Positions 19,838 through 37,683 of a DNA stretch of 64,000 bases are shown here, piece after piece. This DNA is from Neorhizobium sp. NCHU2750 (GTDB taxonomy: Bacteria; Pseudomonadota; Alphaproteobacteria; Rhizobiales; Rhizobiaceae). Made by a program: the position numbers and the translations under genes. Below the pieces are notes generated by a model. The model was not told where the DNA came from, did no database searches, and saw only the letters and a list, made by a program, of their open reading frames with translations. Position 1 is the first letter of the stretch. Each line of letters starts with the position of its first letter. The stretch lies in contig NZ_CP030828.1 in the NCBI RefSeq assembly GCF_003597675.1, forward strand, positions 446,001 through 510,000. Direction: 5' to 3'.

Positions 19838-22060
19838 TTATACGGGCCGGGAAAGCTGTGCAGCGTCAGCCCAGGCCTTGGTCGATCTTGCCGGAACCAA
19901 GCCGTAAAGCCGAGAAAGCTCTTCGGTCAGTCTGATAAGCGATGACAGCCTCGCCTCGTCGACCACCCGACAGGGGGCGATATCGATCTCGGTGTGGTGT
20001 GCGACTTGGCCGGTCCTGAGGGACTGAGCCGTTATACTATCGATATTGATATAGAATTGCTCCTGTTCGCCCTGCGTCGAAGATAGGTCGCTCAGTGCGA
20101 ATTTCTCGCGCAGCACGGTGTGCGAGATGACTGGCTCAAATCTCGTCTTGGGAAACAGGCCGGTCATCGACGCCAGTAAGAGCGGGTTTCCTGCATCCTC
20201 ACCGGCAATCTCTGCTGAATTCAGGAATTCATCGATCCCGGTCTCCAGATTGTCGATCCAGTTGAATTCAAGCCTAGCAATCACGGCGCTTGCACCGTAC
20301 CGAACTGAAGGCAATTCGAGATTGAGGGGGCGCATCGAAGAATCGGAACACGTGCCCCAAGTCATGAATTTGCTCGACATCAGCCTTTGGCGAAGCGTGA
20401 ACCCTGCCGCGATCAGTCCATTGCCCAATGCGGCCGTGGTGTCATCATAGTAAAGATCCACACTTTGCGGGCCGGGAGCGCGATCGAAGCGTGAGACGCC
20501 AAGGCCCGCAAAACGGCTGTCGGATGCAAGCAGTCCATCCGCCGCCGTGCCGCCGCTGGAGCGATGGAGTGCATCACGCAGTTGCTGGACCGATTTTTCC
20601 GCCAAAGGACGCAGCCGCCCTTCATGCTCGAGAGAGAGTTCGACGGGCTTGTTTTGAGCGTTTGGCCGATCTGGTGGCCAATGTAGCAACTGGAAGCCGC
20701 GTCGATCCAGCGTTTCGGCCACATCGGGGAGTTTTGCCCGCACCATATCTCTGAAACGGCGCAGCGTTTCCGGCTCGACCTCGTTCGGTCCCGCGGCCGC
20801 TACGGGTGGGCTGCTGATTGCGAAGCCTTCTTCGAGCCGCGCACAGAAACGTGCGAGCCATTTCAAACCCTCTCCATAAAGGCCGAGCGCCACATCTTCG
20901 CGCGGGGGCGATTTCTTCAGCCGGTCGCGCGGCAGACCAAGCAGATTGGCCGCCATGCCGAGTTCATATCGCGCCTGCCAGAGATGGTCGCCATGCGCCC
21001 CGGCAAATTCTGCGGCCCTGTCGAGGCACAGAGCCACAACGCCAGGGGTCCAGGTAGCGCTGTCGATGCGGTAGGTGAGGGTGGCGCCTTCGCCATCGAT
21101 CGAGCGGTATTGGGCCTTGAATGGCTGCCCATCATGGGGCTTTTCCATTGGCCCGGTATTCTCGATGAAATGCGTGAGTTTGGCGATGTCGAAAAGATAG
21201 TCGCCGGTCAGCCATTCCTTCGGATCGATGAATTTCAGTTCCAGCTTGCCCTCGTTCTTGCGAAGAAGGATGTTGCCTGGATTGGGGTCGCCGTGGACAA
21301 TCGTGGAAAAGGGGGCAGAGATCCGATCCAGATAATCGGCCTTCCGCTGGATGAGGTCGATATAGTGCTGCCACGGTGCGTAATGTTCGCCGTTGATCTC
21401 CAGCGGCTGGGATATGAAGCGTGCATCCTGTTCGGCTGTCTCTGTCAACCGCTCGACTATGCGACCGAGATAGTCGGCGCGGATGCTCGGGATGGTCCGC
21501 CTGTCCTGGCTGGACGAAAAACCGCGGAACATGATGTCGAGCGTATGCAGCATCATCTCGTCGGGAAAACCGCCCACCGGCCTTCCAGGCTTGGGGAACA
21601 ACCGGTCCTCGAGCGACGACCAACCATCGCCCGGCGGGAAAAATTCCATGAGATAGGCATAGGGTGGCGTGTCATGGACGGCATAGATGGCAGGCCAGGC
21701 TTTCCTGTAATCCTCATCCAGCCTGTGATTATTGCCTATGGCCTGCATGACCTTCGCCTCTTCGGCGAGCTTCTTTGTCTTCTGGTCGAGCTTGAAGGCG
21801 AAGGGCGCCTGGAACTTGTAGAACGCCACCATCTCGGCAGTGTTGCCGCCGGATAAATGCTTGCCTTCGATATCGAGCTTTATGACCGGTAGTCCTTTTC
21901 CAACGACCGAATGGATGAGGTCCCTGGCGATCCGATCGGCCTCTCGCCGTGCTTCGTCCCGGTCCAGCGGCGGTGTGTTTCCATCCTCGTCCGTGTCCTG
22001 CAGAAGGGCAGCAATCGCCTCGGTAAGCACATCTTTCAAATAAGTGTCCTGATCGGCCAT
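19838..22060 (-). CDS. APH-type kinase fused to a CYTH-like domain
   Basis: A 740-residue cytoplasmic protein. Residues about 50-400 are an aminoglycoside-phosphotransferase/choline-kinase fold with apparently intact residues: Lys90 and Glu100/101 in the ATP pocket, the catalytic loop HGDPNPGNILL (His256, Asp258, Asn263) and the metal loop FIDPKEWLTGDYLFDIAKL (Asp279). The last 240 residues resemble a CYTH/triphosphate-tunnel domain (DLYYDDTTAALGNGL; FTLRQRL; TEIDIAPCRVVDEARL; a terminal TKAWADA), although the usual N-terminal E-x-E-x-K is not obvious. APH and CYTH domains in one chain could make a small-molecule phosphotransferase coupled to polyphosphate or nucleotide chemistry; this is inference. 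AGGAGG precedes the ATG. It is the last gene of the left arm of the locus. Confidence 0.75.
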   Translation of the reverse strand: MADQDTYLKDVLTEAIAALLQDTDEDGNTPPLDRDEARREADRIARDLIHSVVGKGLPVIKLDIEGKHLSGGNTAEMVAFYKFQAPFAFKLDQKTKKLAEEAKVMQAIGNNHRLDEDYRKAWPAIYAVHDTPPYAYLMEFFPPGDGWSSLEDRLFPKPGRPVGGFPDEMMLHTLDIMFRGFSSSQDRRTIPSIRADYLGRIVERLTETAEQDARFISQPLEINGEHYAPWQHYIDLIQRKADYLDRISAPFSTIVHGDPNPGNILLRKNEGKLELKFIDPKEWLTGDYLFDIAKLTHFIENTGPMEKPHDGQPFKAQYRSIDGEGATLTYRIDSATWTPGVVALCLDRAAEFAGAHGDHLWQARYELGMAANLLGLPRDRLKKSPPREDVALGLYGEGLKWLARFCARLEEGFAISSPPVAAAGPNEVEPETLRRFRDMVRAKLPDVAETLDRRGFQLLHWPPDRPNAQNKPVELSLEHEGRLRPLAEKSVQQLRDALHRSSGGTAADGLLASDSRFAGLGVSRFDRAPGPQSVDLYYDDTTAALGNGLIAAGFTLRQRLMSSKFMTWGTCSDSSMRPLNLELPSVRYGASAVIARLEFNWIDNLETGIDEFLNSAEIAGEDAGNPLLLASMTGLFPKTRFEPVISHTVLREKFALSDLSSTQGEQEQFYINIDSITAQSLRTGQVAHHTEIDIAPCRVVDEARLSSLIRLTEELSRLYGLVPARSTKAWADAAQLSRPV

Positions 22061-22078
22061 TCCGCCGCCCTCCTGTCG

Positions 22079-22609
22079 CTATTGTTCGATCGACGCCCGA
22101 ATGTTCTTCACCTGTTGGATGAGGTCCCCGACTGGAATTTCCTGCAGTTCGCGGGCAGCCTCCTGGCGCCTTGTCTCGTTTTCGGCGGTGCGGATGCCAT
22201 TCTCGATTGCCATGACGAGCCGCTCGCGGTCGGATGCCTTGGCGAGCGATGCCGCGATCTCCGCACGAAGGCGTTGGCGTTGCCCGGCAAGTTCGGCCAG
22301 CCTCTGCAAATCGGCACGAACCTTAGCGAGTTCCGTGCGTTTTGCCGCGATTTCGCGGTCGAGCCTCGATAGCTGGCGATCACTGTCGCGCAGCGACGCG
22401 CTCAGTCGCGCATTGGCCGTATCAAGCGTGTTGGCGCGGGCCGTCAGCGAAGCAACGCGTTGGTCATAAGCTCCCGTCGTGGTCCCGCATATCCCGCCTG
22501 CCAGGCCGCCTTCGCGGGGATCGGTGGTGACGCCGGTGCAGCATCCGGCGAGCAGGCCCAAGCCAAGCAGCGACGGGTTTTTCCACCATGATGACCATCG
22601 CTGCATCAT
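22079..22609 (-). CDS. coiled-coil lipoprotein
   Basis: A 176-residue predicted lipoprotein. A short signal ends in the lipobox LLAGCC (Cys23), a glycine-rich patch follows (EGGLAGGICGTTTGAYDQ), then about 110 residues of strong heptad coiled coil (VASLTARANTLDTANARL; LSRLDREIAAKRTELAKV; LQRLAELAGQRQRLRAEI). Its ATG overlaps the stop of the upstream lipoprotein gene (ATGATGA), so the two are translationally coupled and probably form a pair. It likely sits in the periplasm attached to a membrane. No homologue is known to me. Confidence 0.75.
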   Translation of the reverse strand: MMQRWSSWWKNPSLLGLGLLAGCCTGVTTDPREGGLAGGICGTTTGAYDQRVASLTARANTLDTANARLSASLRDSDRQLSRLDREIAAKRTELAKVRADLQRLAELAGQRQRLRAEIAASLAKASDRERLVMAIENGIRTAENETRRQEAARELQEIPVGDLIQQVKNIRASIEQ

Positions 22610-23310
22610 AGTTTTTCCTCGACCTCGATCAGGGTCGCCCGGCTGTCGACAAGTTGCGCCTTGCCGTGCTCGGCCGCGTTGATCTGCTGGTTCAGCGCGG
22701 AGCCACCGGACACCCGGCTGTTGAGCGACTTGAGCTGCGAAATCTCTTTTTCGGCGGCGCCGATCGCATCGGATATCGTATGCCTGTCGTCAGAGATTGC
22801 AGCTTTCAGGGCAACCTTTTCCCGCGCATTGGCCCTGTTCAGTGAGGAGGCTTGCTGGCGTCTACGAGCAACAAGCGCGTTCGCGGTGGAAACCATTCCT
22901 GAGAGCTTGGCATTGTTGGCGCGCGCCTGGCGGATGACCTGGTTGAGATCATCTTCCTTGCGCACGTAGCTCTTCTTCTTTTCCGCCACGCCCTGGCCGA
23001 CCCCGGCACCGATCAAGGTTCCGACCAACCCGCCGATCAGGGCGTTGCGAGCGACCTGCCTGCCATCGCCGCCGCTCAGTGCCGTCACTGCGGCGGCCCC
23101 CAACGCGCCGATCATGGCACCCGCCGTCGCGCCATCGGTGACGGTCCGCCTGTAATCGGCGGTCTGATGTGCCAACCGTTCTGATGCAGCGCCGTTGGGT
23201 CGCGTCGATGGATTGCCGTCTGCCATTGCGCCTGATGATGTCTCGCAGGAGGCGAGGGCAAAGCTCAACAGCAGCGCCATGGCTGCCTTGGAAATTCTGT
23301 GTAGATGCAT
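22606..23310 (-). CDS. glycine-zipper coiled-coil lipoprotein
   Basis: A 234-residue predicted lipoprotein with lipobox ALASC (Cys22). Residues about 60-110 form two glycine-zipper stretches (TAGAMIGALGAAAVTALSGG and LIGGLVGTLIGAGVGQGV), typical of short membrane-inserting or oligomerising hairpins. The rest is helical coiled coil (VIRQARANNAKLSGMVSTAN; IGAAEKEISQLKSLNSR). It lies between the MotB-like gene (16 bp upstream) and the second lipoprotein gene (4-bp overlap). A role as a periplasmic stalk or ring around the motor-like proteins is an inference from topology and operon position. Confidence 0.75.
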   Translation of the reverse strand: MHLHRISKAAMALLLSFALASCETSSGAMADGNPSTRPNGAASERLAHQTADYRRTVTDGATAGAMIGALGAAAVTALSGGDGRQVARNALIGGLVGTLIGAGVGQGVAEKKKSYVRKEDDLNQVIRQARANNAKLSGMVSTANALVARRRQQASSLNRANAREKVALKAAISDDRHTISDAIGAAEKEISQLKSLNSRVSGGSALNQQINAAEHGKAQLVDSRATLIEVEEKL

Positions 23311-23326
23311 GAAAGCCCCCTTGCTC

Positions 23327-24247
23327 CTAAAGGTCTTGCAATCGTTTCATCAGACGGCCTGGGTCGCAGAGCCCGTCCCTTGTCGTGCCGAGGCGGATGT
23401 CGATGCTCGCCTTGGCCTTGCTGATTTCTTCCGACGAGAGGCCGCGATAATAGGTCGCCATCTCCGAGAAGGCGTGGATCGCATCCTCGCTTTCGATCAT
23501 GATGCTGCGGCGCAGTTCCGGTGCGTTTTCGAAGCTTCCGGGATTGACCCTTATGCAGGCGAGCGGAAATCCGGCGGCGGCGAAGGCTTCCCGATAGGCT
23601 GCTGCGAGCCTGCCGCTCAGCAGGTAGATCGCATTCATGGCTCCCTCATCCGCAAGGCCGGCGGGTATCAGCGCAAGAATCTGCGGCGGCATGAATGTCT
23701 CGATCAGAATTTCATTGGCACCCGGCGGCAGAGGTCTCGCCTTCGCAATCATCCGCGCGAGCATGTCTCGATCAAGGGACAGGCGCAGCTTGCTGGCGTC
23801 GGTAAAGAAAGGCGCCAGCGATTTCGCGGATATGAAAAATTGGCCAATATCCTGATATCCTGGCGAAGCTTGGCTACTGAGTATTTCAAGTCTGGATTGG
23901 GCCAGGGACAAAGCCTCGCCGGCTGCCGTCAGTAACCGCTCCTTCTCCTTAAGCTCGTCGGCCTGGAGGCTATTTTGTCGCTTGAGACGGTCCGTCTCTT
24001 CCGCGGCGGCTGCCAATAGTCTTGCCTGTTTGTCGAATGCCTGCCGCGAAACCAGGTCTTGAAGTTTCGTCTGGCCTGTCTTCTGAGCCGGTGTCGGCAA
24101 CGTCGAACTGGGCGCTGCCTGTCCGATCTGTTGGCCCACGCCGACGATACCCAATAGCAGCATGGCGATCGCAAATAGCGAGATCATCAGGTCCGATCCC
24201 GGCCCGTAAGCATCCTCGATGGGCTCATAGAGGCTAACGTCTTCCAT
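23327..24247 (-). CDS. MotB/ExbD/ZorB-like membrane partner protein
   Basis: A 306-residue single-span protein. The only membrane helix (about 20-38) begins GSDLMISLFAIAMLLLGIVG, with Asp19 where MotB, ExbD and ZorB carry the proton-binding aspartate. A coiled coil (about 75-125) follows, then a C-terminal periplasmic domain (about 155-290) with a pattern loosely like OmpA/MotB peptidoglycan-binding domains (NAIYLLSGRLAAAYREAFAA, then FPLACIRVNPGSFENAP), too divergent to assert. Its start overlaps the end of the channel gene by 14 bp. Together they form the expected two-component stator pair. The gene order, the conserved Asp and the topology are the main evidence. Confidence 0.72.
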   Translation of the reverse strand: MEDVSLYEPIEDAYGPGSDLMISLFAIAMLLLGIVGVGQQIGQAAPSSTLPTPAQKTGQTKLQDLVSRQAFDKQARLLAAAAEETDRLKRQNSLQADELKEKERLLTAAGEALSLAQSRLEILSSQASPGYQDIGQFFISAKSLAPFFTDASKLRLSLDRDMLARMIAKARPLPPGANEILIETFMPPQILALIPAGLADEGAMNAIYLLSGRLAAAYREAFAAAGFPLACIRVNPGSFENAPELRRSIMIESEDAIHAFSEMATYYRGLSSEEISKAKASIDIRLGTTRDGLCDPGRLMKRLQDL

Positions 24248-25787
24248 CTGTCAGCGCCTCCCTGGCCGAGGCAGGCGCGGCTGGCGAGATGGCTGACGCC
24301 GAGATCCTCTGAATACTGCCCCATTGCTGCAGGGCGATCTGGCCGACCGAGATCGCCAGAATAGCGACGACGTAGACGATAAAGGCGCGCCGAACTTGCC
24401 TCTCGCTGTCGCGTTGCGTTCGCGCGATCATCTGGGCGACCAAGGCGCTGGAACCGGAGAGGTGGTTTGAAACGCCCTCTGCAATGCCGCGCCTGAGGCT
24501 GTCTCGTAGCGTATCGTTCAGTCCGGCGGACAGCGCTTCACTCGCCCTGGAAAGCCCGTCGGAAAGGGATGCCGTCATGCCGGCCAGAGACGCGGCCGTG
24601 CTGTCACGGCTGATCTTGAGCGTGTTTTCCAGAGCCAGCATGCCGCCCGTTGCATGTCGATCCATGTCCGCGACCAGCCGTTCCAGTCGCTCGGACGTCA
24701 TGCTCTCGATCAACTGCATTCTTTCGGCAACGGTGCGAACATGAAGCGTTGCCTCTCGCCCTTGTTCTAGCATGGCCTTGATATCCGAAGCCTGTTGCGC
24801 AAAGAGCAGGGCGGGCTTCGAGAGGCCCTCTGCCATTGTGCGGGCGGTCGTCTCCAGCCTCCCTACATGCCCATGTATGTCAGTGCGGGTCTCCGACAGG
24901 ACGCGCAGATTGTCTTTCAGGGCTTCCCGCAGATCTTCGGCGGTCCGGACCAGTTCCTCATTGACGACGGATGTATCCCTGAAGAACCTTTGGGCGCTGA
25001 TCGCAAGACGCTGGATCTGGCCAATCAGCTTTGCTTCGCGCCATCGCGCCACGGAGGCGATGAGGGAGATCAGGATCGCTGCGACAATCCCTGCGATGGA
25101 CGTGCCGAAGGCGATGGCCAGCCCTTCGATGACATCGCCCATCAGACCGCTGATGCGCTCCATCAGGCCTTCGAATTCGATGGCATGCTGAGGATTGGCG
25201 CCTGCGCTCATCTGCGCGCTGCGTAGCACGAAGACCTCCTGAACCTGCTGGAGCGACATGATGAGGCCGACAAATGTGCCGAGGATGCCGGTACGGATGG
25301 CCAGGGTCTGTACCGCCGATATGCGGTAGGAAAAGGCGCGAATGCCCATCTCTTCGGCCCGTATCGCCAGATGCACCGGCTCGTAGCGGAAGAAGCGGGC
25401 GTCGTTGTGCAGTATGGCGATGATCCGCCCGGTGGACGTCGCCAAGCGTCGGGCGGCGTCGACATCGTTGTCGCCCAGAAGACCCGATGCCGCGAGATCT
25501 GGCGACATGGTGCGGAAATGGACTTCGCTGCTGTGAAAGTGATTGCGGATACGTTTGCCGACGAAGGCGACCACCTCCTGTTCCTGACGTTCCTTACGGT
25601 GCCCGGCAATGGCAAGCAGCCCGGCTAGCAGGAGCGAACCGACAAAAACACCGAGCGTGGACCACAGGGCCAAGGCGGAGGAAAAAAGCGGAGACAGCAC
25701 ACCCAGCCGATGCCAGTCGAAGAGGCTAGCGCCGAGAGCGACAAGGGCGAGCGCGGCCATGACCGTGACTGGATAGAATTTTCTCAT
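24234..25787 (-). CDS. MotA/TolQ/ExbB-type channel protein with long coiled-coil tail (ZorA-like)
   Basis: A 517-residue inner-membrane protein. Predicted spans are at about 5-23, 38-62, 162-182 and 219-247, and a fifth near 467-490. The third and fourth carry the MotA/ExbB hallmark (AIRTGILGTFVGLIMSLQ; EGLAIAFGTSIAGIVAAI). Between the fourth and fifth spans lie about 200 residues of helical tail rich in heptads (TARTMAEGLSKPALLF; DIKAMLEQGREATLHV), similar in concept to the long cytoplasmic tail of ZorA of the Zorya antiphage system, though here the tail returns to the membrane. I chose the ATG at 25787 (MRKFYPVTVM). An in-frame TTG at 25853 would add 22 residues inside the AT-rich promoter gap. 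First gene of the left arm. Confidence 0.78.
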   Translation of the reverse strand: MRKFYPVTVMAALALVALGASLFDWHRLGVLSPLFSSALALWSTLGVFVGSLLLAGLLAIAGHRKERQEQEVVAFVGKRIRNHFHSSEVHFRTMSPDLAASGLLGDNDVDAARRLATSTGRIIAILHNDARFFRYEPVHLAIRAEEMGIRAFSYRISAVQTLAIRTGILGTFVGLIMSLQQVQEVFVLRSAQMSAGANPQHAIEFEGLMERISGLMGDVIEGLAIAFGTSIAGIVAAILISLIASVARWREAKLIGQIQRLAISAQRFFRDTSVVNEELVRTAEDLREALKDNLRVLSETRTDIHGHVGRLETTARTMAEGLSKPALLFAQQASDIKAMLEQGREATLHVRTVAERMQLIESMTSERLERLVADMDRHATGGMLALENTLKISRDSTAASLAGMTASLSDGLSRASEALSAGLNDTLRDSLRRGIAEGVSNHLSGSSALVAQMIARTQRDSERQVRRAFIVYVVAILAISVGQIALQQWGSIQRISASAISPAAPASAREALTDGRR

Positions 25788-25908
25788 TCTGCATTCCAGG
25801 GTTGCTAAATTTGGAATTAATGCACCCATAAGATGTAAAATCATCTTGATCAATACGCGCTTTTATATTTATTGATATGCAACCAAAAATTGTTTTCGGG
25901 GATGGTGC
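25788..25908. promoter_or_regulatory. divergent promoter region of the motor-like locus
   Basis: A 121-bp AT-rich gap between the two divergent arms. It contains AAGATG-TAAAAT-CATCTT (25830-25847), a perfect 6-6-6 inverted repeat, and ATCAAT (25849-25854) / ATTGAT (25871-25876). Both arms are probably driven from here, perhaps under one regulator that is not encoded in the locus. Confidence 0.5.
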
Positions 25909-27045
25909 ATGATGGAAGGTTCCGGGCTGATCGGCCAGTTTCTAAGGCAGCAATCCAACCCGCCGCCTGCCCTTGGGCGGACGGCACGACCGATCGGCGA
26001 TGTCTCGACCACCGCAGCGGTGACACTGACGGCAATCCGCCGTGCCGACGGGGGTGGCGAGCTGATCATGGGGCGCGAAGTCGAGGCGCGGCTCAGGTTC
26101 GCCGTCCATAGATATGTCGCGCCCCTTCAGGGCAGCTTTCATCGCATGGAGATCACGCTCGACCCGGCTTCCATGGCGGGCCTGGATGCGCGGGCGGGCG
26201 TAGATCGGCCCCTGATGCTGATCACGGCGGAAATGCCGCTGGAAAATGAGCAGGTTTTCACCGTGCCCTTTCAGCGCGCCGGCGTCGCCCGAATTGAAGC
26301 TGAGCCGGATGGGAATGGAGATTTCGCCCGGTTCAATCCGACGGTCGGGGCGGTATCGCTCGGTGGCGATGAGGGCAGGCATCTCCTCGCAAGCTGTATG
26401 GCTGCTGTCGATCCCTATCGCGAGGAGAGTTCAGGCGCTTGCGCGTCATTTCCTCTACCATTGGTAGAAATGTCGTTCTGGCCAGATACCCAGACCCCAC
26501 CAAAACCGCTCTGGCAACTTCATCGTCAGTCGCGGCCGGCAAGCCGTCAGCGATTTGCTGTTGCTGCCGCAAACCATGACGAATTGATCGGGTGGCACCG
26601 AGAGATTTCCGATGCGCTCCGACCGGATTGCGAGCGCTGGCTCGAACATGGTCGTCCCACCGGTGATGCCTATCTGACTGAGGCGATTGCCGCGAGGCAG
26701 GCGGATATTGCTGCCTGGCAGGCCTTGGCGGGGTCTGATGACGCGCGCGGTCTCGGCGCGGGTGCAACCGTATCTGCACTTGCCCGGCTCTATCTCAGCC
26801 AGGCGATCGCGGCCTGGGCGCGTTTTCGCGCTTTCGACGAGATGATCGGCTTTGGCGTATCGCCGGAGGACAGCCGGTCCCGACGTGAGCTCCTCCTCTT
26901 GCTGGATGGCATTGCCAATGCGGATGGCCAGCAGGCGATGCTGACCGCGATCCGCGACGCGCTGGCTAACGGCCAGACATTGTTTTCACCGCCGCGGGCA
27001 GAGGAACTGCTGCGAAAGGTATCGAGGCGCCTGAATGATCTGTGA
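25909..27045 (+). CDS. hypothetical protein, first gene of the right arm
   Basis: A 378-residue soluble protein I do not recognise. The first 190 residues look beta-rich (VTLTAIRRADGGGELIMGRE; GSFHRMEITLDPASMAGL; VFTVPFQRAGVARIEAE); the rest is helical (ARQADIAAWQALAG; SRRELLLLLDGIANADGQQA). There is no signal peptide or membrane span, so it is cytoplasmic. GGGGA six bases upstream supports the ATG at 25909. It overlaps the protease gene by 11 bp, so the two are translationally coupled. Confidence 0.75.
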   Translation: MMEGSGLIGQFLRQQSNPPPALGRTARPIGDVSTTAAVTLTAIRRADGGGELIMGREVEARLRFAVHRYVAPLQGSFHRMEITLDPASMAGLDARAGVDRPLMLITAEMPLENEQVFTVPFQRAGVARIEAEPDGNGDFARFNPTVGAVSLGGDEGRHLLASCMAAVDPYREESSGACASFPLPLVEMSFWPDTQTPPKPLWQLHRQSRPASRQRFAVAAANHDELIGWHREISDALRPDCERWLEHGRPTGDAYLTEAIAARQADIAAWQALAGSDDARGLGAGATVSALARLYLSQAIAAWARFRAFDEMIGFGVSPEDSRSRRELLLLLDGIANADGQQAMLTAIRDALANGQTLFSPPRAEELLRKVSRRLNDL

Positions 27046-28330
27046 TCACAGCCCCCATGAATGCCTTGTCATGATCATCCCTGCCGGCAAGGAGTTGGGG
27101 CATGGAAGCGGCATTCTGCTGGGGGATCGTCATGTCCTTACGTGTGCCCATGTCGTCGACATGGATTTCTTCAGGTTCGCCTACGATCGCGAGACGACGC
27201 ATGAACAGCAATGCGGTGCGAATATTGCACTGAAGCAGAAGGCCGAAAGCCGAGGCGTGACTGCCACGGTACGGCTCTATGACGGAATGGAGCGTCAGGC
27301 GACCGTCGAGCAAGTCCATGCCGTTCTCGACATGGTACTGCTGCGTCTTGACCTGCCGGTGCCCGTTGCCGTTCACATCAGGATGCCGGAGGCGGATGTC
27401 ATCCTTGATAGCGCGACGGGGCTGACGGGGCTTGGTGTTGGTCGGGCAAACGATGGCTCCTTTCGGATAATTTCAAAGCCGCTTTCTCCGAGCGCCAACG
27501 AAAGCGTCGGGAGCCGGGTATCGTCTTTCTCTGGTGACGCCGATCCCGGCATGAGTGGCGGGCCGATATTCCTTAGGGCTGCCGAGGGCTATCGGCTTGT
27601 CGGCATGCTGACGCTCGGCGGCAAGACTATCGATTTTGCTCGAGGCATTCGGGATTGTGAAATCGCGGCCTTCCTGCGGGATGTTCAGACCTTGTCGAAC
27701 TGGGAAGGGGGCAGTTGCGGCCTTCCTCACGACTTCATCACGCCGGTAGGATCAGCGGATGACACAATACGATGGGTCCGCTGTGCCGGGGCGGACGGTG
27801 ACACGGATCGATCGGAGCGAGAATCCCGGTTGCGTGCGGTTCGCTATATCGCCTCCCAGCCACTGACTCTGGGAAATGTCGATGCATTGCTCGACGTGAG
27901 GCGAACCGCGTTGCTGACGGAGGCCCGTCGATCGTGTCTTGCGGACTTCAGCGCAGATGAGACTGGCAAGGTCTGCGCGCTGCTCTCGACGAGGACAGGC
28001 CTTGCGATCTCGCCGCCCGACCTGGTCGGGTTTGCTGCGGTCACCCGGGAAATGGGCAACCCTCCAGAACTGGAGAGCGAGAACGACGATCGCATCACCA
28101 ATATGCCTTTGGCGACCTGGCAATTACGTCGTGTCGGTAATTTTGCCATGGCGCCGGAAGCAGCCCTGGAGTGGATCGACGACGGCGGGCTGTCTAAGGC
28201 TTTCTTCGATGGTTCGAATTTGAAGCCACGGCGTGAGAGCATCGTTCTAAGAGCAACGTCCCGTCGCAGGCGAGCGTTGTTGCGCCCCGCTCTGTCCGTT
28301 CGATTATGGGATGGAGTGACGATCGGATGA
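27035..28330 (+). CDS. trypsin-like serine protease with C-terminal extension
   Basis: A 431-residue protein without a signal peptide. Residues about 10-220 are a trypsin-like (S1) domain with an intact triad: LTCAHVV (His39), VLDMVLLRLD (Asp99) and GMSGGPIFL (Ser174). The last 200 residues are helical then basic (RRRRALLRPALS) and match nothing I recognise. Cytoplasmic trypsin-like domains with extra modules are known as effectors in bacterial conflict systems, which is suggestive only. It overlaps its neighbours by 11 bp and 4 bp (ATGA), so expression is tightly coupled to both. In contrast to the HtrA-like protein at 5.2 kb it should be active. Confidence 0.82.
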   Translation: MICDHSPHECLVMIIPAGKELGHGSGILLGDRHVLTCAHVVDMDFFRFAYDRETTHEQQCGANIALKQKAESRGVTATVRLYDGMERQATVEQVHAVLDMVLLRLDLPVPVAVHIRMPEADVILDSATGLTGLGVGRANDGSFRIISKPLSPSANESVGSRVSSFSGDADPGMSGGPIFLRAAEGYRLVGMLTLGGKTIDFARGIRDCEIAAFLRDVQTLSNWEGGSCGLPHDFITPVGSADDTIRWVRCAGADGDTDRSERESRLRAVRYIASQPLTLGNVDALLDVRRTALLTEARRSCLADFSADETGKVCALLSTRTGLAISPPDLVGFAAVTREMGNPPELESENDDRITNMPLATWQLRRVGNFAMAPEAALEWIDDGGLSKAFFDGSNLKPRRESIVLRATSRRRRALLRPALSVRLWDGVTIG

Positions 28331-31305
28331 GCGATGATCAGGATCACATCTCTGCGGGAGAACGCAGCATTTCAAATGCTGTCATTGGCCTGTCCGATCC
28401 AGATGAAGGGGGGAAACGGGGGAACGCTGCGGGGCCGGCCAGATCGGCGGAGGGTGCCTTTACGAGGGTTGGTGGGGAAGAAAGGCCGGAAGCAAGGGAA
28501 GGGGAGGACGCAGGCAACAACTTCAAATCCGGGCGTGCTGGACTGTTGCCACCAGACGGAGGAAGGCCTGCCTACGATTTTCAATGGGTCGATGCCGGGC
28601 GGGGATTGGATCTGTTGGAGATTGCCTCATCGCTCGCCGAGCAGGGGCTTACCTTCATGCGCCATCTTCTGCATATCGCGGGCAGCGTGCTCGGCGAGGG
28701 GCTGGATGAAAGACCGCAACCGATCGTGGGCATTGCACTTCGCTCCTTGGATATGGCGCCGCTTCTGGCGCTCACCCAGCTGTTGAGCGGATATGACGAA
28801 GACAAGCTTACCGTGATCAATTATCGGGGCGATCTTGCCGCAGGTAATTCGCCAGGTCTTCTGGCAGAGGCGCTTTTGCGCCACCACGACGCGGGTCATC
28901 CGACGAGCGAAACGATCCTGTTCATATTGCCGGATGCCATGCGGACGCTTGCCTGGGAACGCGCGACGCTCTGCGGTGACGATCCGCTCTCCCATCTGTT
29001 GCGTCGGCTCGCCAAGCGCCTGATCATCGGGTTCGAGGCGGGCGGCGCTCATCCCCTCAGCCGGTTGGTCAACGCTGATACACGCATTATGCCATTGCCT
29101 TGGGCGCTGCCTGCCGTCCTGCTGCATACCGATCGACATGAATTCAGCCCTCGCCGTATCGATGGTCGGCTCTTGCTGACGATGTCAGCGGCAACAGCCT
29201 GGCATGGTTCCGAAGATGACCGGAGAGAACGTGGCCGATTTCAACAGCTGACGACTGGCCTCGAAGATACAGCCGGGGCGATGGAGTTCCAGTCACGCCT
29301 GGAAAGCCTGCTGGCTGATGACAGCTATGACATCGAGGCGATATGGCAGATGCGGGGCAGGTTGGTATCCGAAGCGTTCGGTCTGCTGCCCCTGGCGCAG
29401 AATGAGACCACAGAATTTTTCCCTTGCGGTCCCGCCGTGCTGCGCCAGGCCATTCTGTTTACCGTTGCCTTCTGCAAGGCATTGCCCGGTCATCACTTCA
29501 TGAAGATCGTGCGTGCAAGCGTCGATATGCAGACGCAGCTCAAGCCTTCCGAAATACTGCCGCAAGACAGGGCCGACTTGCCGGAGCTGCCCGCCACCGA
29601 GGATGCAAAGGTCAAGCCGGCCCCGGCAATGCCGATATTGGCAGATTGTTTCGAGCGCTATTTCGACCGCCTGTGCCGCGAGTATGATATCGTCGTGAAT
29701 GACGGATACTTACGGCTCTCCGGAAAATGGGCCGATTTCCCGTTGGCGAGCTTTATCGGGCAAAATGCACCAATCCAGGCCGCAAGCCTTGCTCACCGAC
29801 TGATGGCCAATATGCATGTGCTCGATCTGCAGAGCCTCGTGGAACATGCGGCACTTATCGACATATTGGCGCTGGCAAAGATCCATCTGCCCGCGAGCTT
29901 CGACGACGAATTGCTGGTCAAATGGCTGACGGAGCACACGTTCCGGCCGCTTCTTCCGAAGCTTCAGCAGGCTGCCAATATCGATGTCCTGGCGCAGGAT
30001 ATCAGGATGAGCAACGCCGACAGTGCCGGCGTGATTGCCAACATCATGCAGGCAGACAATTCCGAGAGAATGGCCCGCTATGCGCGCGACGCCGGCTGGC
30101 AGATGGCCAAGACGATAACCCTGTTCTCCAATGCCTGCCGCCAGATCGCCGATACAAACCACATCCGGCGCAATTCGGGGGATGAAGAGGCGAAGCTGCT
30201 AGCGGCTATAATCGGGTACGAGGACTGGGTTGGGAATTTCGTGGCGGGGCTCTCCCTCGGGATGCTGCTGATGGATATGCAGCCGCCCGGCAAGGTCGAT
30301 CGACGTGAGCTTTATGCTCTCGTCCGTAGATTTGTTCGTCGCGACGACCCTGCCTTGCGTGCGATCAGATCCATCATCTCGCAATATCTGGACACGCGTG
30401 CAAACGTCCTCGGCGGCGCCTTCGGACCGCTGGATCAGGCCCATCGGGTGCTTCGGGTGCTGGCCGGAGGAGATGGTGACCTGCCGGAATTCTGGGGCGC
30501 CATGTCCGTCACCATCACCGAGCTTCTACTGAATTTCGATATTCGCTGGCCTCCGTCGGATGGGGAGTTACTGGCTTACGAAGAGATGCGGCGCGGGCGG
30601 CGTTACACTGCGCCCGTCCTCATCTGCGGCGATCGTCGGACACGGGATGGCCATGAAGGATTGAATGTCGAAGGGAGCTATGTCCTGGAGAGGCTTGCCA
30701 CGCGCTTTTTTGCATGCTCGCCCGCGCTCTGGCTCGACAGAAGCCTGAACCGGCAGGCGATCGAGGATGCCGGGCATCGGCTGCGCGATTGCATCTACGT
30801 TCTGCTCGATGGCGTTCCACAAGGGGCAAAAACCTGGCGGCTGACCGACAAATCCGAACATGAAGCGCGGGTGCTGCGCGCCCTGTGCATCAATAGTGGT
30901 GCGCGGCCACTCGCGGGTTGTGAGGAATTGTCCGTCTCTCTGGCGGACATTCACGATTTTTCCGAGCTCTTGCCATCGGAGGAGGCGATGGTTCGGCTCT
31001 ATGGGCTGTTCTGGTCTGCGGTTCTTCTTCATTGGCGTTTTCAGTTGTTCGACGTGAGCCCGCTGGCCGCCGGTTCTGAGGATGCGGAATGTCTGGCGGG
31101 CGCGTTGGCGCAGTTGACCCGTGGCGTTCCGCGGGGGGCTCTTGCCGGCCTGATCGATGGGCTGGGCATTTTGCAGACCGTCACTCGCGATGCCTTGGAA
31201 CATCACGCGCTGGCCTTGGGAGATCAGAGTGCCGCACGGTTTTACGCCGCCAAGGCCGACGCCATCGGCAAGTTGAAGCGACATCTCGGAAGACAGGGGG
31301 CTTGA
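28327..31305 (+). CDS. large hypothetical protein (992 aa) of the motor-like locus
   Basis: A 992-residue cytoplasmic protein with no family I recognise. The first 75 residues are polar and low in complexity (rich in Gly, Glu and Arg), probably disordered. The rest is mainly helical with repeated leucine-rich segments (ALTQLLSGYDEDKLTVINYR; LSHLLRRLAKRLIIGFEAGG; SFIGQNAPIQAASLAHRLMA). No nucleotide-binding, nuclease or membrane motif is visible. The ATG at 28327 overlaps the protease stop codon in an ATGA junction, which sets the start. Its size and central position suggest a scaffold or sensor; this is speculation. Confidence 0.75.
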   Translation: MSDDQDHISAGERSISNAVIGLSDPDEGGKRGNAAGPARSAEGAFTRVGGEERPEAREGEDAGNNFKSGRAGLLPPDGGRPAYDFQWVDAGRGLDLLEIASSLAEQGLTFMRHLLHIAGSVLGEGLDERPQPIVGIALRSLDMAPLLALTQLLSGYDEDKLTVINYRGDLAAGNSPGLLAEALLRHHDAGHPTSETILFILPDAMRTLAWERATLCGDDPLSHLLRRLAKRLIIGFEAGGAHPLSRLVNADTRIMPLPWALPAVLLHTDRHEFSPRRIDGRLLLTMSAATAWHGSEDDRRERGRFQQLTTGLEDTAGAMEFQSRLESLLADDSYDIEAIWQMRGRLVSEAFGLLPLAQNETTEFFPCGPAVLRQAILFTVAFCKALPGHHFMKIVRASVDMQTQLKPSEILPQDRADLPELPATEDAKVKPAPAMPILADCFERYFDRLCREYDIVVNDGYLRLSGKWADFPLASFIGQNAPIQAASLAHRLMANMHVLDLQSLVEHAALIDILALAKIHLPASFDDELLVKWLTEHTFRPLLPKLQQAANIDVLAQDIRMSNADSAGVIANIMQADNSERMARYARDAGWQMAKTITLFSNACRQIADTNHIRRNSGDEEAKLLAAIIGYEDWVGNFVAGLSLGMLLMDMQPPGKVDRRELYALVRRFVRRDDPALRAIRSIISQYLDTRANVLGGAFGPLDQAHRVLRVLAGGDGDLPEFWGAMSVTITELLLNFDIRWPPSDGELLAYEEMRRGRRYTAPVLICGDRRTRDGHEGLNVEGSYVLERLATRFFACSPALWLDRSLNRQAIEDAGHRLRDCIYVLLDGVPQGAKTWRLTDKSEHEARVLRALCINSGARPLAGCEELSVSLADIHDFSELLPSEEAMVRLYGLFWSAVLLHWRFQLFDVSPLAAGSEDAECLAGALAQLTRGVPRGALAGLIDGLGILQTVTRDALEHHALALGDQSAARFYAAKADAIGKLKRHLGRQGA

Positions 31306-31330
31306 GCCAATGGGCATGAGGGAGAGTGAC

Positions 31331-33784
31331 ATGAAGGAATACGGTTCGCTTGCGCCCTGCACCTATCGACAGGCGATCGTTCGGCTCGAGCTGGATGAAG
31401 AGGCGCCGGATGGCTTCGATGTCGTCACGCTGAATGCCCGCGGAGAAACGCTCAGAGGTCCGAGGGCGCTGCTGCCGGGCAAACGATACCGCATCGCAGT
31501 CAGCCGCGATTTCTACCGCTCGATATCGGATGCGACCAGGAAGCTGCGGGAACAATTGGAACCTATCCTGTTTACGACCCGGGAAACGGTGAACTTCAAT
31601 CTGGATCTGCGCGTGCGCACTGAGGGCCGTCATTCAGCCGAAATCGCCAGGCGCCATTTTCACGAGAGCAAGGGCCCCGAACAGCTTTTCTATGCTTTCT
31701 TCGGCAACGAATTTCGCGCGCTTCTCGAACAGTCCGCACGACAGCAGACCGGCGATATCGACAGGCGGATCGATGAAAACAAGGAGAAGTGGGAGCCGCT
31801 TCTCGCGGAGAAACTGGAAGCGCGCTTCGGCCTCGGCTTCGAGATCAATTTCCTGATCGACAAGACCGTCGAGCAGGACAAGCAGATTGCGACCGAGGGA
31901 GCTGCACCTCTTCATGTCGCCTTTGTCGATCGCATTGACAAGGACATGCCCCTGCGCGTCGATCTTCGTATTCGTCGTCATCCCGTCAGCAAGAGTAATC
32001 TGGCCTTGCCGCGCGGAGAAACGAAGTTGCGCAACGTCTTGCTCGAGGTGATCCGGAAAGCCTGCGCCGAAGAGTTGACGCTTTTTGACTACTGGTATCG
32101 ACCGGCGCAGATGCGGCAGGCGATCGCGACGAGACTTGCCGCCTATCTCGACGAATATTCCTATGGCGTGGCCAATCTCGTCGTCGTCCGGGACGAAGCC
32201 AGCAGGAATCCGCCGCCGCAGAGCGTGAAGCTCGAAGCGAGCGTGCGCTGGCAGGACACGCGGGGATATGAACTGGAGTTCAGGGCCGACGCCGTCGCCA
32301 GGATCGCCGAGGACGGAGCCGGCCTTTACGATCGTTCCGAACAGCCCGAGCGTGCCGCCTGGTTCAGGGCAACGATTGCCGATTGCCTCAGCCAGGTTCT
32401 GGCAGGGGTCGCCATCAATGACCTCGGCGAGACGCAGATTGCAGCCTATAATGACGAAGTCAGGCAGCGTATTTCGGATCGTGCCGATGGCATAGGCCTC
32501 AAGCTCGACGTCTTCTTCGCATCGGTCTTCCTGCCGCTGCACGGCTGGCTGAAGACCCGGCGGGTAACCGTGCCGGAGCAGGATTACCGCACGGCGCATC
32601 CAAGAATTCCCGGTACATTCGCGATGGATATGGAGCTCAGGTTCGAAACCCGGGCCGCCTTGGAGCCGTTCTTCATCGAATATGCAAGGCAAAACGGCGG
32701 CCAGAACAGCCGGGTGCCCGACGATGACTTCATCCGTGAAAAACTGGCTGCTGCGGCACGCGAAGCGGCCGAGCTGGTGATGCAGTCGACGCCCGCCGAG
32801 ATCTATTTCAGCAATTTTATCGGTGCTGCCCGATGGAATGCCTCCATGTCCGAATCGCCCGATCCCGGATTTGGTGGCGTCGACAACAATCTGATCTCTG
32901 CCAAGCTGGTCTCCATTCTGGAGAACCGCTATCCCGGCGTCACGCTGGTGGCGCTGCATTTTCATCGGATCGATCGTTGTGTGGAGGACCTGCGGCGGCT
33001 GGTGGCGGCAGTGCGGACGGTGCAGTTCGAATGCGTGATCAAGGATCGCCTTTTCGGCGATGGTGGGCGCGACCGCAATATCAAGGGCTATGTGATCATC
33101 GAAGGAGGCTCGGCAGAACGCATCGTCATGATGCTGAACAATGATCTCCACCTCATCGCACCCGACAGGTTCAAGGCGGACCTCATCCAACGCCTTCGGG
33201 TCGCGGTGGAAAACCGCCTGAGCCACGCCACCAAGTCGGAGCTCGAGTCGCTGATGAATTCGATGACTGCAGAAGGGGGCGCTTTCATTAACCCGGTCTC
33301 ACGGCTCCTGAAAGAGCACCTAAGGGCTGTGCTTGAGACCGGCTTCGGCCTGATCGTTGGAGATATCGAGTTTACTGCTGAACTTTCCGCGGGTGAGGAG
33401 AACCTGCGGGAATTTTCCAATAGCGCGATGCGCGTGTCACTTGGCACATTGAAGGACGAGTATCTTTCGCTGGAACGACAGTTCAATAATCTCCTGGAAC
33501 AGCGGCAGGCGATCATCGGGACCTCTGTGGAGGACAACAAGAGGCGGAGCGACCTGACCGGCGAGATCGAAAAGACGCGGGCCGCGATACAGTCGCTCCG
33601 GGAACGGGCCTCGGGTGGAAAGCTTCGGGATCCGGCTGACGTCGTCATCGAGGCAAGCCATTACTATCTTGCGCAGGCGGTACCGTTGGCCTTGCCGTCT
33701 TCCGTCGTCGGGCCTGACGGCCATCGCAGCTTGCCGGATGACAAGGGCGGATCGGGCGGCGAGCCGACGGACGAGGGGTTCTGA
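31331..33784 (+). CDS. protein with about five tandem SPFH/band-7-like repeats
   Basis: An 817-residue soluble protein. Reading along it, a unit recurs about five times (roughly 87-177, 194-287, 298-403, 428-548, 563-685). Each unit starts with a strand such as VNFNLDLRVRT, PLRVDLRIRRH, FAMDMELRFET or VQFECVIKDR. It continues through helices and closes with a helix-plus-strand such as KLEARFGLGFEINFLID or HLRAVLETGFGLIVGDIEFT. This resembles the SPFH/band-7 fold, normally present once per chain. A coiled coil (about 695-760) and a Gly/Asp-rich tail follow. The ATG at 31331 has GAGGGAGAG just upstream; earlier ATGs at 31310 and 31316 lack this. Last gene of the right arm. Confidence 0.72.
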   Translation: MKEYGSLAPCTYRQAIVRLELDEEAPDGFDVVTLNARGETLRGPRALLPGKRYRIAVSRDFYRSISDATRKLREQLEPILFTTRETVNFNLDLRVRTEGRHSAEIARRHFHESKGPEQLFYAFFGNEFRALLEQSARQQTGDIDRRIDENKEKWEPLLAEKLEARFGLGFEINFLIDKTVEQDKQIATEGAAPLHVAFVDRIDKDMPLRVDLRIRRHPVSKSNLALPRGETKLRNVLLEVIRKACAEELTLFDYWYRPAQMRQAIATRLAAYLDEYSYGVANLVVVRDEASRNPPPQSVKLEASVRWQDTRGYELEFRADAVARIAEDGAGLYDRSEQPERAAWFRATIADCLSQVLAGVAINDLGETQIAAYNDEVRQRISDRADGIGLKLDVFFASVFLPLHGWLKTRRVTVPEQDYRTAHPRIPGTFAMDMELRFETRAALEPFFIEYARQNGGQNSRVPDDDFIREKLAAAAREAAELVMQSTPAEIYFSNFIGAARWNASMSESPDPGFGGVDNNLISAKLVSILENRYPGVTLVALHFHRIDRCVEDLRRLVAAVRTVQFECVIKDRLFGDGGRDRNIKGYVIIEGGSAERIVMMLNNDLHLIAPDRFKADLIQRLRVAVENRLSHATKSELESLMNSMTAEGGAFINPVSRLLKEHLRAVLETGFGLIVGDIEFTAELSAGEENLREFSNSAMRVSLGTLKDEYLSLERQFNNLLEQRQAIIGTSVEDNKRRSDLTGEIEKTRAAIQSLRERASGGKLRDPADVVIEASHYYLAQAVPLALPSSVVGPDGHRSLPDDKGGSGGEPTDEGF

Positions 33785-33812: not shown

Positions 33813-35039
33813 TCAGATTTTGGCGGCGAGACGGCAGAGCATCCGCGCAACTTCGAACGACTTCTCGAAGGCGGGGAGCGGCAGGAATTCGAAGCGCGAG
33901 TGGAAATTATAGGCGCCGGTGAAGAAATTCGGTGTGGGTAGGCCACGTGACGAAAGCGCTGCGCCATCCGTTCCGCCGCGCATGGGCAGCGGCTTGGGTG
34001 TTATGCCGAGTGCTTCCATCGCCGAGAAAATCATGTCCACGGGCCTTGTTTCCCCACCGAGATGATCGCTGATATTGTGATACTGATCGCTGATCCTGCA
34101 GGCCACATGGCCGCTCGGATAACGATTCCCTATCGCGGCCGCAGCCTTGTTGATCCTGTCCTTGCGCTTCTCAAATCCGGCCTTGTCGAAGTCGCGGATC
34201 ATCACCGACAGGCGCGCCTCCGTGTCGTTGGCGCTTAGGTCCTTGAACCAGAAATATCCTTCTCGCCCCTCGGTTTGCTCCGGTGTCTCGGCCCGATCGA
34301 ACTCGGCAACGAAATCCATGGCCATGAGCAGTGGATTGACGAGCACGCCCTTGGCGGACATGGGATGCGCGCTGACGCCGGTAAAGGTGATCTCGCCGCT
34401 TGCGGCGTTGAAATTCTCGAACACGATCTCGCCAAGCTCGCAACAGTCGATCGTATAGGCGAAATCGCAGGGAAAACGGTCGAGATCGAGAGCTTTTGAT
34501 CCGCGCAACCCGATTTCCTCGTCCGGGACGAAAGCGATGCATATATCGCCATACTGGCCCGAGCTTCCAAGGCGGTTGAGCAGGGTCATAATAACCGCGA
34601 TCGCCGCCTTGTTGTCGGCGCCGAGCACGCTGGTGCCGTCGCTGAAGATGATATCCTGGCCTTCCCATCCGCGGATTTCCGGGTGTTCCGCAACCCGAAG
34701 CCAGATGTCGCTTTCCGTATTGAGGCAGAGATCCTCCCCGTTGAAACGAAGGATCTGGGGCTTGATGTTGGGCGATAGGCCGACATTCACCGTGTCGAGA
34801 TGAGCGATGAAGCCGATCTTTGGCGCCTTCGGCAGGGAGCCGCGTCTTATGGCCGTTACTGTCGCATGCCCGTCGATCGTCACCGCGTCGAGACCCATGC
34901 CCCGCAACTCGTCACGGAGAAGCGCGGCGAGCCTTGCCTGACCGAGGGTGGAAGGGAGAGTGGTGGACTTCGCATCGCTCTGGCTTTCGACCGCAAGATA
35001 ACGGAAGAACCGTTCGATCAGTTCATTGCGAAGTTCCAT
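33813..35039 (-). CDS. pepT: peptidase T (tripeptide aminopeptidase)
   Basis: A 408-residue M20B metallopeptidase, the same length as E. coli PepT. It releases the N-terminal residue of tripeptides in the cytoplasm. Visible motifs are IAHLDTVNVG (zinc His and Asp), GADNKAAIAVIMTLL (bridging Asp), FVPDEEIGLRG (Glu-Glu), TIDCCELGEI and the C-terminal MRGGTDGAALS. I chose the ATG at 35039 (MELRNELIERFFRYLA); the open extension to 35135 is out of line with the family. It is convergent with the SPFH-repeat gene, 28 bp away, and divergent from a LysR gene. Confidence 0.92.
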   Translation of the reverse strand: MELRNELIERFFRYLAVESQSDAKSTTLPSTLGQARLAALLRDELRGMGLDAVTIDGHATVTAIRRGSLPKAPKIGFIAHLDTVNVGLSPNIKPQILRFNGEDLCLNTESDIWLRVAEHPEIRGWEGQDIIFSDGTSVLGADNKAAIAVIMTLLNRLGSSGQYGDICIAFVPDEEIGLRGSKALDLDRFPCDFAYTIDCCELGEIVFENFNAASGEITFTGVSAHPMSAKGVLVNPLLMAMDFVAEFDRAETPEQTEGREGYFWFKDLSANDTEARLSVMIRDFDKAGFEKRKDRINKAAAAIGNRYPSGHVACRISDQYHNISDHLGGETRPVDMIFSAMEALGITPKPLPMRGGTDGAALSSRGLPTPNFFTGAYNFHSRFEFLPLPAFEKSFEVARMLCRLAAKI

Positions 35040-35225
35040 GGCATGTCCTGTCTGTGGGGAGATGAATGAGAGATACGACTGCCACCAGCATAATTGGCTT
35101 GTGTTCCTTGCGCCATCGGTGGCTGTCCTGATCATGCCAATGGCTCACGCGGCTACGTATTACCTTTATCAATTCATTCGAATATTTTGAGTTTTCACGA
35201 TCATTTATCCGTGTACACCTTGCTG

Positions 35226-36257: not shown

Positions 36258-37661
36258 ATGGAGCTTTGGATCGTGATCGATGTCCTGATCATAGGCGGCG
36301 GTAATGCGGCCTTGTGTGCGGCCCTGATGGCAAGCGAGGCCGGCGCCTCGGTGCTGATGCTGGAAGCAGCGCCAAAGGCGTGGCGCGGCGGAAATTCGCA
36401 GCATACCCGCAATCTCAGATGCATGCATGATGCGCCGCAGGATGTACTGGTCGAAGCCTATCCTGAAGAGGAATTCTGGCAGGACCTTTTGAAGGTAACG
36501 GGCGGCGAGACCAACGAGCATCTGGCGCGTCTGGTCATCCGGGCATCGTCGAACTGTCGTGACTGGATGCGACGCCATGGCGTCCGCTTCCAGCCACCGC
36601 TTTCCGGCGCGCTGCATGTGGCGCGCACCAACGCCTTTTTCATGGGTGGCGGCAAGGCGCTCGTCAATGCCTATTACCGCAGCGCCGAGGCGCTTGGCGT
36701 CAAGGTCCGCTACGAAACGCCGGTGAGCGAGATCATCCTCGAAGGCGGCAAATTCATTGGCGTCGTGACGGAGAAAGGCGAGAGGATCACCGCGAAATCC
36801 TGTGTCCTTGCGGCAGGAGGGTTCGAGTCGAACCGCGAATGGCTGCGCTCCGCCTGGGGTCGCAATGATCGCGGCGAGTGGCCGGCTGACAATTTCCTCA
36901 TTCGCGGAACGCGCTTCAATCAGGGTGTTCTGCTGAAATACATGATGGACGCGGGCGCCGACATGATCGGAGATCCTTCGCAGGGGCATTGCGTTGCCAT
37001 CGACGCGCGTGCACCGCTCTATGACGGCGGCATCTGCACGCGCATCGACTGCGTCTCGCTCGGTGTCGTTGTCAACGGGCAGGGCGAGCGGTTCTACGAC
37101 GAGGGCGAGGATTTCTGGCCGAAGCGCTATGCGATCTGGGGCCGTCTCGTGGCACAGCAGGCGGGACAGATCGGCTATTCGATCATCGACCGCAAGGTCC
37201 TTGGCCGTTTCATGCCGCCGGTTTTTCTCGGTGTCGTCGCCGACAGCCTTCCGCAACTGGCCGAAAAGCTCGGCCTGCCGGTGGATGCGTTCGTGAATAC
37301 GCTCGCGGACTATAACGATGCCTGCCAGCCGGGTACGTTCAACCATACCGTTCTCGACGACTGTCGAACGGAAGGCGTGACACCGGCCAAGACCCACTGG
37401 GCACAGAAAATCGATACGCCGCCTTTTTATGGTTACGCTCTGCGTCCGGGCATCACCTTCACCTACCTGTCGCTAAAAGTGGACGATACGGCCGCAGTGC
37501 GCTTTGCCGATCGGCCGAGCCCCAACCTCTTCGTCGCAGGCGAGATGATGGCCGGCAACGTACTCGGCAAGGGCTACACGGCGGGTGTCGGGATGAGCAT
37601 CGGAACGGCCTTTGGCCGCATCGCCGGATCGCGCGCTGCCGCCGCCGCACTTGCCGCGTGA
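36258..37661 (+). CDS. tcuA: FAD-dependent tricarballylate dehydrogenase
   Basis: A flavoprotein of the fumarate reductase/succinate dehydrogenase family, closely resembling TcuA, which oxidises tricarballylate to cis-aconitate. It has an FAD motif [18 protein letters not shown] at the extreme N-terminus, the TcuA-typical [20 protein letters not shown] stretch and a C-terminal FAD segment [23 protein letters not shown] 36258 gives 467 residues. GTG 36273, with GGAG nine bases upstream, would start exactly at the FAD strand and may be the true start. It is followed by tcuB 22 bp later. Confidence 0.88.
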
Positions 37662-37683
37662 CATTTTTTCAGGAGCAACAAGA

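Follow-up and report, generated by a model that had tools for sequence, protein, structure and literature searches.

A nine-gene locus of Neorhizobium combining a MotAB-like pair, a kinase and a trypsin-like protease: a candidate conflict system

What is the function of a locus in which a MotA/MotB-type pair lies among genes for a kinase, a protease and putative envelope proteins? An earlier note on this DNA, made from the sequence alone, left the choice between an antiphage or conflict system and an envelope-stress device. The locus lies in the window, by which we mean the whole 64,000-nucleotide stretch of Neorhizobium sp. NCHU2750 that was analysed; the stretch belongs to contig C2, and the whole genome measures 6.35 Mb. 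A RepB gene is found above the family cut-off on C2, and likewise on C3, C4, C5 and C6, so we class C2 as a repABC megaplasmid or chromid. The plasmid records similar to a 24-kb part of the window (n = 266) include 77 from Sinorhizobium, 75 from Rhizobium and 29 from Agrobacterium. The open reading frame list contains nine tightly packed genes in two coupled divergent arms at positions 19838-33784 (Table 1), between the genes for Prc (17639-19723) and PepT (33813-35135), exactly as first described. The overlaps of 4 to 14 bp that had been reported were recovered in part. Among the seven same-strand junctions, we counted four overlaps, of 4, 14, 11 and 25 bp (a g8 start at 28327 would reduce the last to 4 bp), and three gaps, of 18, 16 and 4 bp. 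This alternative start gives g8 the 992 residues mentioned in the earlier note. No sigma-70-type promoter match was found within 25700-26050, around the divergent gap.

The locus had been presented as undescribed. This agrees with our searches: PADLOC recognises no complete system among the nine proteins, and we found no description of the locus in the open-access library searched, a scope outside which most subscription papers and preprints fall. Only three of the nine proteins have Pfam matches above the cut-off, namely g1 (MotA_ExbB), g5 (APH) and g7 (Trypsin_2). A hydropathy scan predicts five transmembrane (TM) segments in g1, one in g2 and none in g5 to g9.

Table 1. Genes and divergent gap of the locus, with positions in the window. 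L042 and L038 are the related loci described in the text; L050 extends L042 and L051 extends L038.
Feature	Position	Strand	Evidence
g5, APH-fold kinase with CYTH/triphosphate-tunnel domain, by predicted fold	19838..22060	-	Pfam APH 6.8e-6; predicted fold
g4, probable lipoprotein, coiled-coil-like part	22079..22609	-	phmmer 6.5e-20 (L038), 1.4e-7 (L042)
g3, probable lipoprotein, Gly-zipper and coiled-coil-like part	22606..23310	-	phmmer 7.7e-19 (L042), 1.9e-16 (L038)
g2, MotB-type partner	23327..24247	-	one TM; profile match 94% to L050+L051 pair
g1, MotA/ExbB/ZorA-like channel	24234..25853	-	Pfam MotA_ExbB 5.8e-6; homologues in L042/L038/L051
Divergent gap between g1 arm and g6 arm	25854..25908	.	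55 bp
g6, protein without predicted TM	25909..27045	+	no relative found
g7, trypsin-like protease	27035..28330	+	Trypsin_2 1.1e-10, above Pfam cut-off
g8, large protein	28306..31305	+	flanked by g7 and g9 in L038/L042 as well
g9, large protein, possibly tandem SPFH/band-7-like units	31310..33784	+	phmmer ~1e-27 to L042/L038

The assignment of g1 as an ExbB/MotA-type channel is upheld by its Pfam match, which exceeds the cut-off. In the hydropathy scan, four channel-type TM segments are followed by ~220 cytoplasmic residues, which look coiled-coil-like by eye, and then by a fifth, C-terminal TM segment; five segments are also predicted in both homologues. Translation could also begin at an in-frame Met, codon 23. 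The putative partner g2 has a short N-terminus, one predicted TM segment and a putative periplasmic part, and its Asp19, which lies ahead of the TM segment, is invariant in the three homologues of the alignment. These traits fit the MotB likeness that had been proposed, but neither g2 nor its L051 homologue has a Pfam MotB/OmpA match, i.e., a recognised peptidoglycan-binding domain. Among 289 genomes of the class, g1 retrieved itself and three weak matches, and searched alone against genome contigs it gave no confirmed relative. One weak match (L004) consists of a channel and a small partner, the other genes of the locus being absent within 3.4 kb; another (L005) extends past the end of the 3.4 kb examined.

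The Zorya systems (types I-III) are the closest precedent for this pair. The locus probably shares with them a MotA/MotB-type inner-membrane pair, an ion-site-type Asp, an extended cytoplasmic portion of the channel protein and, as proposed, a role in envelope sensing. No ZorC-ZorG profile of PADLOC matched any of the nine proteins at E≤1, and we rejected a plain Zorya, as the earlier note had done. Could the locus be a very divergent Zorya, in which ZorAB works with a protease and a kinase in place of ZorC/D/E? Weak matches of g1 to ZorA2 (PADLOC, 1.4e-8) and to the NCBIfam ZorA model NF033915 (4.5e-5, 22.7 bits for a cut-off of 100) point in this direction, together with the long stretch behind the channel and the invariant Asp of g2. 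Yet the best ZorA stretch of g1 (residues 238-412 in PADLOC) lies mostly behind the channel, all three g1 homologues have the additional C-terminal TM segment, and g2 has neither a ZorB match in PADLOC nor an OmpA match, whereas Zorya needs a peptidoglycan-binding domain. The locus also adds a trypsin, a kinase, g8, g9 and two envelope proteins. We thus regard a divergent Zorya as improbable.

The two genes next to the motor pair had been described as encoding coiled-coil lipoproteins. By eye, the N-termini of g3 and g4 show a signal-like stretch ending in Cys, in line with this description, but the position of the Cys is not kept in every homologue. The Gly-zipper of g3 gave a weak match to YiaD (4.1e-5), below the cut-off.

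The other arm starts with g6, which had no match in Pfam, PADLOC, NCBIfam, PHROG or the related loci, and may be lineage-specific or too divergent to detect. It is followed by g7, where an active-looking trypsin-like protease had been predicted. The match to Trypsin_2 and the alignment bear this out, since His39, Asp99 and Ser174, which we read as the catalytic triad, are invariant in the three homologues. The protein has neither a predicted TM segment nor an evident signal peptide, and its residues 20-387 match the profile of the pair of homologues at 98%. Its C-terminal domain is perhaps FGE/C-type-lectin-like: an FGE match was obtained at E = 0.23 on one of the three homologous fragments and none on the window's own. 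For g8, we weakly assign counterparts in L042 and L038 by position plus sequence signal. Local alignments gave z = 5.1 for L042 and z = 3.1 for L038, a score exceeded by one of 200 shuffles, and the C-terminal parts gave z = 4.6 and z = 5.3, respectively; the hhalign match was weak (4%).

The last gene, g9, matches the pair profile at 99.2%. It had been called a tandem SPFH-like protein. Its five best non-self matches in 289 genomes of the class were two Band_7 proteins (L007, L010), a glutamate synthase (L009), a methyltransferase (L011) and a protein without Pfam match (L008). The Band_7 proteins rank first (E = 0.0021, per genome) and fourth (0.0177), a signal that, with 289 genomes searched, is no more than suggestive. 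It lends weak support to the SPFH likeness, but g9 has no Pfam match, internal repeats were not detected, and a model built from four sequences (pLDDT 40.9) was too poor to judge the fold. We also observed a g9-like gene elsewhere in the Rhodopseudomonas genome that contains L042 (L052, 13790-16117), with the other genes of the locus unmatched in the 34 kb surrounding it.

Both large proteins are very rare. Searches of 5.8 billion proteins with g8 and g9 returned only the window's own protein among the best 7,994-7,996 candidates scored, which had to share five-residue words with the query. The genome itself was the only match for g8 in 121 genomes of the family, and for g9 in 199 genomes of the order and, with its profile (A3), in 385 genomes of the class. 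No relatives were found in plasmids with g9, g8, g5, g1, or the g9 and g8 of L042, nor in viral contigs with A3 or A1, the 25-sequence alignment of the g5 family. In the PDB, g9, g1, g5 and the profiles A3, A1, A2 (g1), A6 (g2) and A4 (g8) gave no sequence relative beyond chance.

Do the genes of the locus belong together? We found eight of them co-located in two metagenome-assembled genomes (MAGs), of Rhodopseudomonas palustris (L042) and of an uncultured alphaproteobacterium (L038), g8 being placed there by position and a weak signal; g6 was not found in either. The co-occurrence that the earlier note proposed to test thus holds in these two genomes for all genes except g6, tentatively so for g8. 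In addition to the values of Table 1, phmmer matched g9 (5.2e-28 in L042, 1.8e-27 in L038), g1 (2.5e-15 and 2.3e-11), g7 (2.7e-10 and 5.1e-7) and g2 (6.5e-5 in L050, 1.2e-8 in L051). Both genomes have one arm that reads g7-g8-g9-g1-g2 and a second that reads g3-g4-g5a-g5b, where g5a and g5b are the kinase and the tunnel encoded as two separate genes. Hence, the blocks g1-g2, g3-g4-g5 and g7-g8-g9 are kept in all three loci while the arms are reshuffled. This conservation across rearrangements is strong evidence, drawn from gene content and order, that the eight recurring genes form one functional unit.

An alternative is that two unrelated cassettes happen to be neighbours, i.e., a conflict module made of the kinase and the peptidase and a separate envelope motor. 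We know nine loci of the g5 family, including L042 and L038, and in the other seven the matches to genes of the window are limited to g5 (L036 begins 193 bp before it): their g5 relatives have no detectable motor and are accompanied by a peptidase or a peptidase-like gene. A g9-like gene also stands alone once. The link of kinase and protease with the motor, which the earlier note had drawn, is seen again in L042 and L038, where they travel together, but was not detected in these seven loci. Two cassettes would nonetheless have to explain why the same eight genes are together in two genomes despite shuffled blocks, the protease, g8 and g9 sharing an arm with the motor there, and the kinase sharing one with g3-g4. 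We find this alternative very unlikely.

The g5 family provides a broader view. The fusion of APH and CYTH domains proposed for g5 is upheld for the first part (~residues 7-415) by Pfam, by a predicted APH kinase fold and by the conservation of the catalytic residues. The second part (~430-735) is recognised by predicted fold but not by Pfam, whose CYTH model matches none of 25 family members. Foldseek on the g5 model, a query that included more than the tunnel domain, retrieved YgiF (4.5e-6), VTC (1.7e-5) and Vtc2p (5.1e-4). Tunnel positions 478, 480, 482, 537, 582, 596, 598, 600, 603, 651, 653 and 674 are kept in 21-22 of the 22 rows that remain after dropping P0064, P0066 and P0070; six other checked positions vary. 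The conserved charged residues of the family form the elements ExExR, E582, RxExN, RxK and D674, and the usual CYTH motif is ExExK. The C-terminal part is thus like CYTH/TTM enzymes, such as YgiF and the VTC complex, in fold and charged residues, and differs from them by the fused kinase, the ExExR variant and the absence of a Pfam CYTH match. By predicted fold, we class g5 as a fusion of an APH kinase with a triphosphate-tunnel (CYTH) domain.

We found 101 relatives of g5, of which 49 have at least 700 residues; judged by length, about half of the family carries the fused tunnel domain. The closest relative is 94% identical and the next one 49% over the full length. A weak match to TCAD9 (E≤1) occurs in 22 of the 25 aligned members (best 3.2e-5). 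The nine loci (L036-L044) were obtained by scanning 84,980 species genomes with patterns from A1, a procedure that misses relatives without the patterns and may leave out records of the own genome. They are scattered: besides alphaproteobacteria, the carriers are Hyalangium, three Bacteroidota and a single genus of betaproteobacteria. When A1 was searched in 297 genomes from the order to which G607 belongs, the matches were confined to G607 and G603.

Peptidases recur in these clusters: by raw count, uncorrected for chance neighbours, seven of the nine loci have a Pfam-recognised trypsin, CHAT or caspase. The gene adjoining the g5 relative encodes a CHAT protein in L036 and L039, a divergent trypsin in L041, and a caspase-methyltransferase fusion in L043 and L044, whereas the trypsin of L038 and L042 is two genes away. 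In Hyalangium (L037, 12136-13908) and Sphingomonas (L040, 11110-12807), proteins of 565-590 aa are encoded directly after the g5 relatives. They form one family (28% identity) with an aligned HExxH motif and no Pfam match, so a metallopeptidase is only suggested. A search of 126 genomes of the phylum of L037 with the profile of the family (A11) gave no match, an empty answer being uninformative here. The loci of Mucilaginibacter (L043, 9701-14163) and Pedobacter (L044, 8741-13182) constitute a compact module of their own, in which an APH-only g5 relative is directly followed by the caspase-methyltransferase fusion and two small genes of similar appearance (118 and 212-220 aa). In Aquabacterium (L039, 4671-19046), the neighbourhood of the g5 relative includes a TPR-CHAT protein, a protein of 1654 aa that matches AAA weakly, and the PADLOC phage defence candidate PDC-M54B.

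This exchange of peptidases recalls the MoxR-vWA-VMAP/iSTAND ternary conflict systems, in which trypsin, caspase and rare metallopeptidase effectors are reported to interchange (Kaur et al. 2020, PMC7159879). The same study also mentions band-7 and FGE-type effector domains and a few active APH kinases (PMC7159879), further possible points of likeness to our locus, with its trypsin, and to the g5 relatives with their CHAT, caspase or trypsin neighbours. The difference is that a membrane motor replaces the NTPase core. A plain MoxR-vWA ternary system was rejected, as no Pfam match to MoxR ATPase, vWA, VMAP or iSTAND was found at E≤1. By the tests made, the locus is Zorya-like at the membrane and ternary-system-like at the effector, and a plain member of neither.

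The genomic setting is divided. In the Rhodopseudomonas copy, a DISARM-like set (L050, 3-10786) ends ~1.6 kb from g2; it consists of an MTase_II protein (1.6e-101), a 936-aa protein without match, DrmA (2.4e-79) and DrmB (3.2e-14). In the window, ten neighbours are metabolic or housekeeping (Prc, PepT, LysR, sugar transport, tricarballylate and similar), and no PADLOC match was obtained at 1e-10 for the ten other window genes that we chose. The flanks of L038 look metabolic by eye. Known defence genes are thus near only one of the three copies, and the idea that the locus sits in defence islands finds support in L042 but not in the other two. Downstream of PepT and a LysR regulator, we noted tcuA and tcuB (tricarballylate) at 36258-38844. 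In a genome of the same genus (G244), PepT is 68% identical and its neighbours differ.

These flanks bear on the main rival, an envelope-maintenance or stress-response device akin to Tol-Pal, in which the motor would pull g3 and g4 at the outer membrane, the kinase and protease would tune the response, and there would be no antiphage role. A motor accompanied by Gly-zipper and coiled-coil-like envelope proteins fits such a device, as do the metabolic-looking flanks of two of three copies and the neighbouring Prc, of a periplasmic protease family. The Tol-Pal and ExbBD-TonB motors are likewise ion-driven inner-membrane units with envelope partners, but the locus differs from them by its cytoplasmic kinase and protease, by the absence of Pfam matches to TolA/TonB or Pal, and by its rarity. 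This rarity (only the own genome for the g9 and g8 searches above, and nine g5 loci) counts against an envelope device, and the peptidase exchange and DISARM-like neighbours fit conflict systems better. An envelope device therefore seems unlikely, although less so than the other alternatives.

The evidence best supports a conflict system that has a protease as its effector and an ion-driven motor as its putative sensor. We give a rough probability of 0.55 to the locus being a conserved multi-protein conflict system, probably antiphage, a defence role that we infer from several lines of evidence. Eight of nine genes recur as rearranged blocks, peptidases are exchanged next to g5 relatives, and one copy has DISARM-like neighbours. 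The g5 family is rare and scattered, with weak TCAD9 matches, and g7 has no predicted TM segment. Finally, a motor that acts in phage defence is already known in ZorAB (PMC11890865). The metabolic flanks, the weak homology of g8 and the missing recognisable peptidoglycan-binding domain of g2 count against this reading.

In the mechanism that we infer for such a conflict system, g1 and g2 would make up an ion-driven unit of MotAB/ZorAB type, seated in the inner membrane. Through contacts in the envelope, g3 and g4 would prolong this unit as far as the periplasm or outer membrane, where they may sense a disturbance such as phage injection. A mechanical or ion-flow signal would then pass to the long cytoplasmic stretch of g1 and to an assembly that g8 and g9 would form in the cytoplasm. 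This assembly would release the g7 protease, the putative toxic output, which would cut host or phage proteins and stop growth. The threshold would be set by g5, whose tunnel may read a triphosphate or polyphosphate and whose kinase may phosphorylate a small molecule or a partner.

More tentatively, and at less than even odds, the locus may represent a new class of immune machine, in which control of a cytoplasmic protease falls to an ion-driven MotAB-type motor instead of an NTPase. Here, the kinase and the polyphosphate/triphosphate tunnel would be a safety lock reading energy or alarmones, and the kinase-peptidase pair would be a general module that other bacteria couple to other sensors. 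If true, the locus would join a ZorAB-type motor sensor and an exchangeable protease effector, immunity themes known apart. The uncharacterised g5 kinase family adjoins peptidases of two unrelated folds (trypsin and caspase/CHAT), perhaps of a third, and this pairing raises a testable question: what is the ligand of the tunnel, and does the kinase restrain the peptidase?
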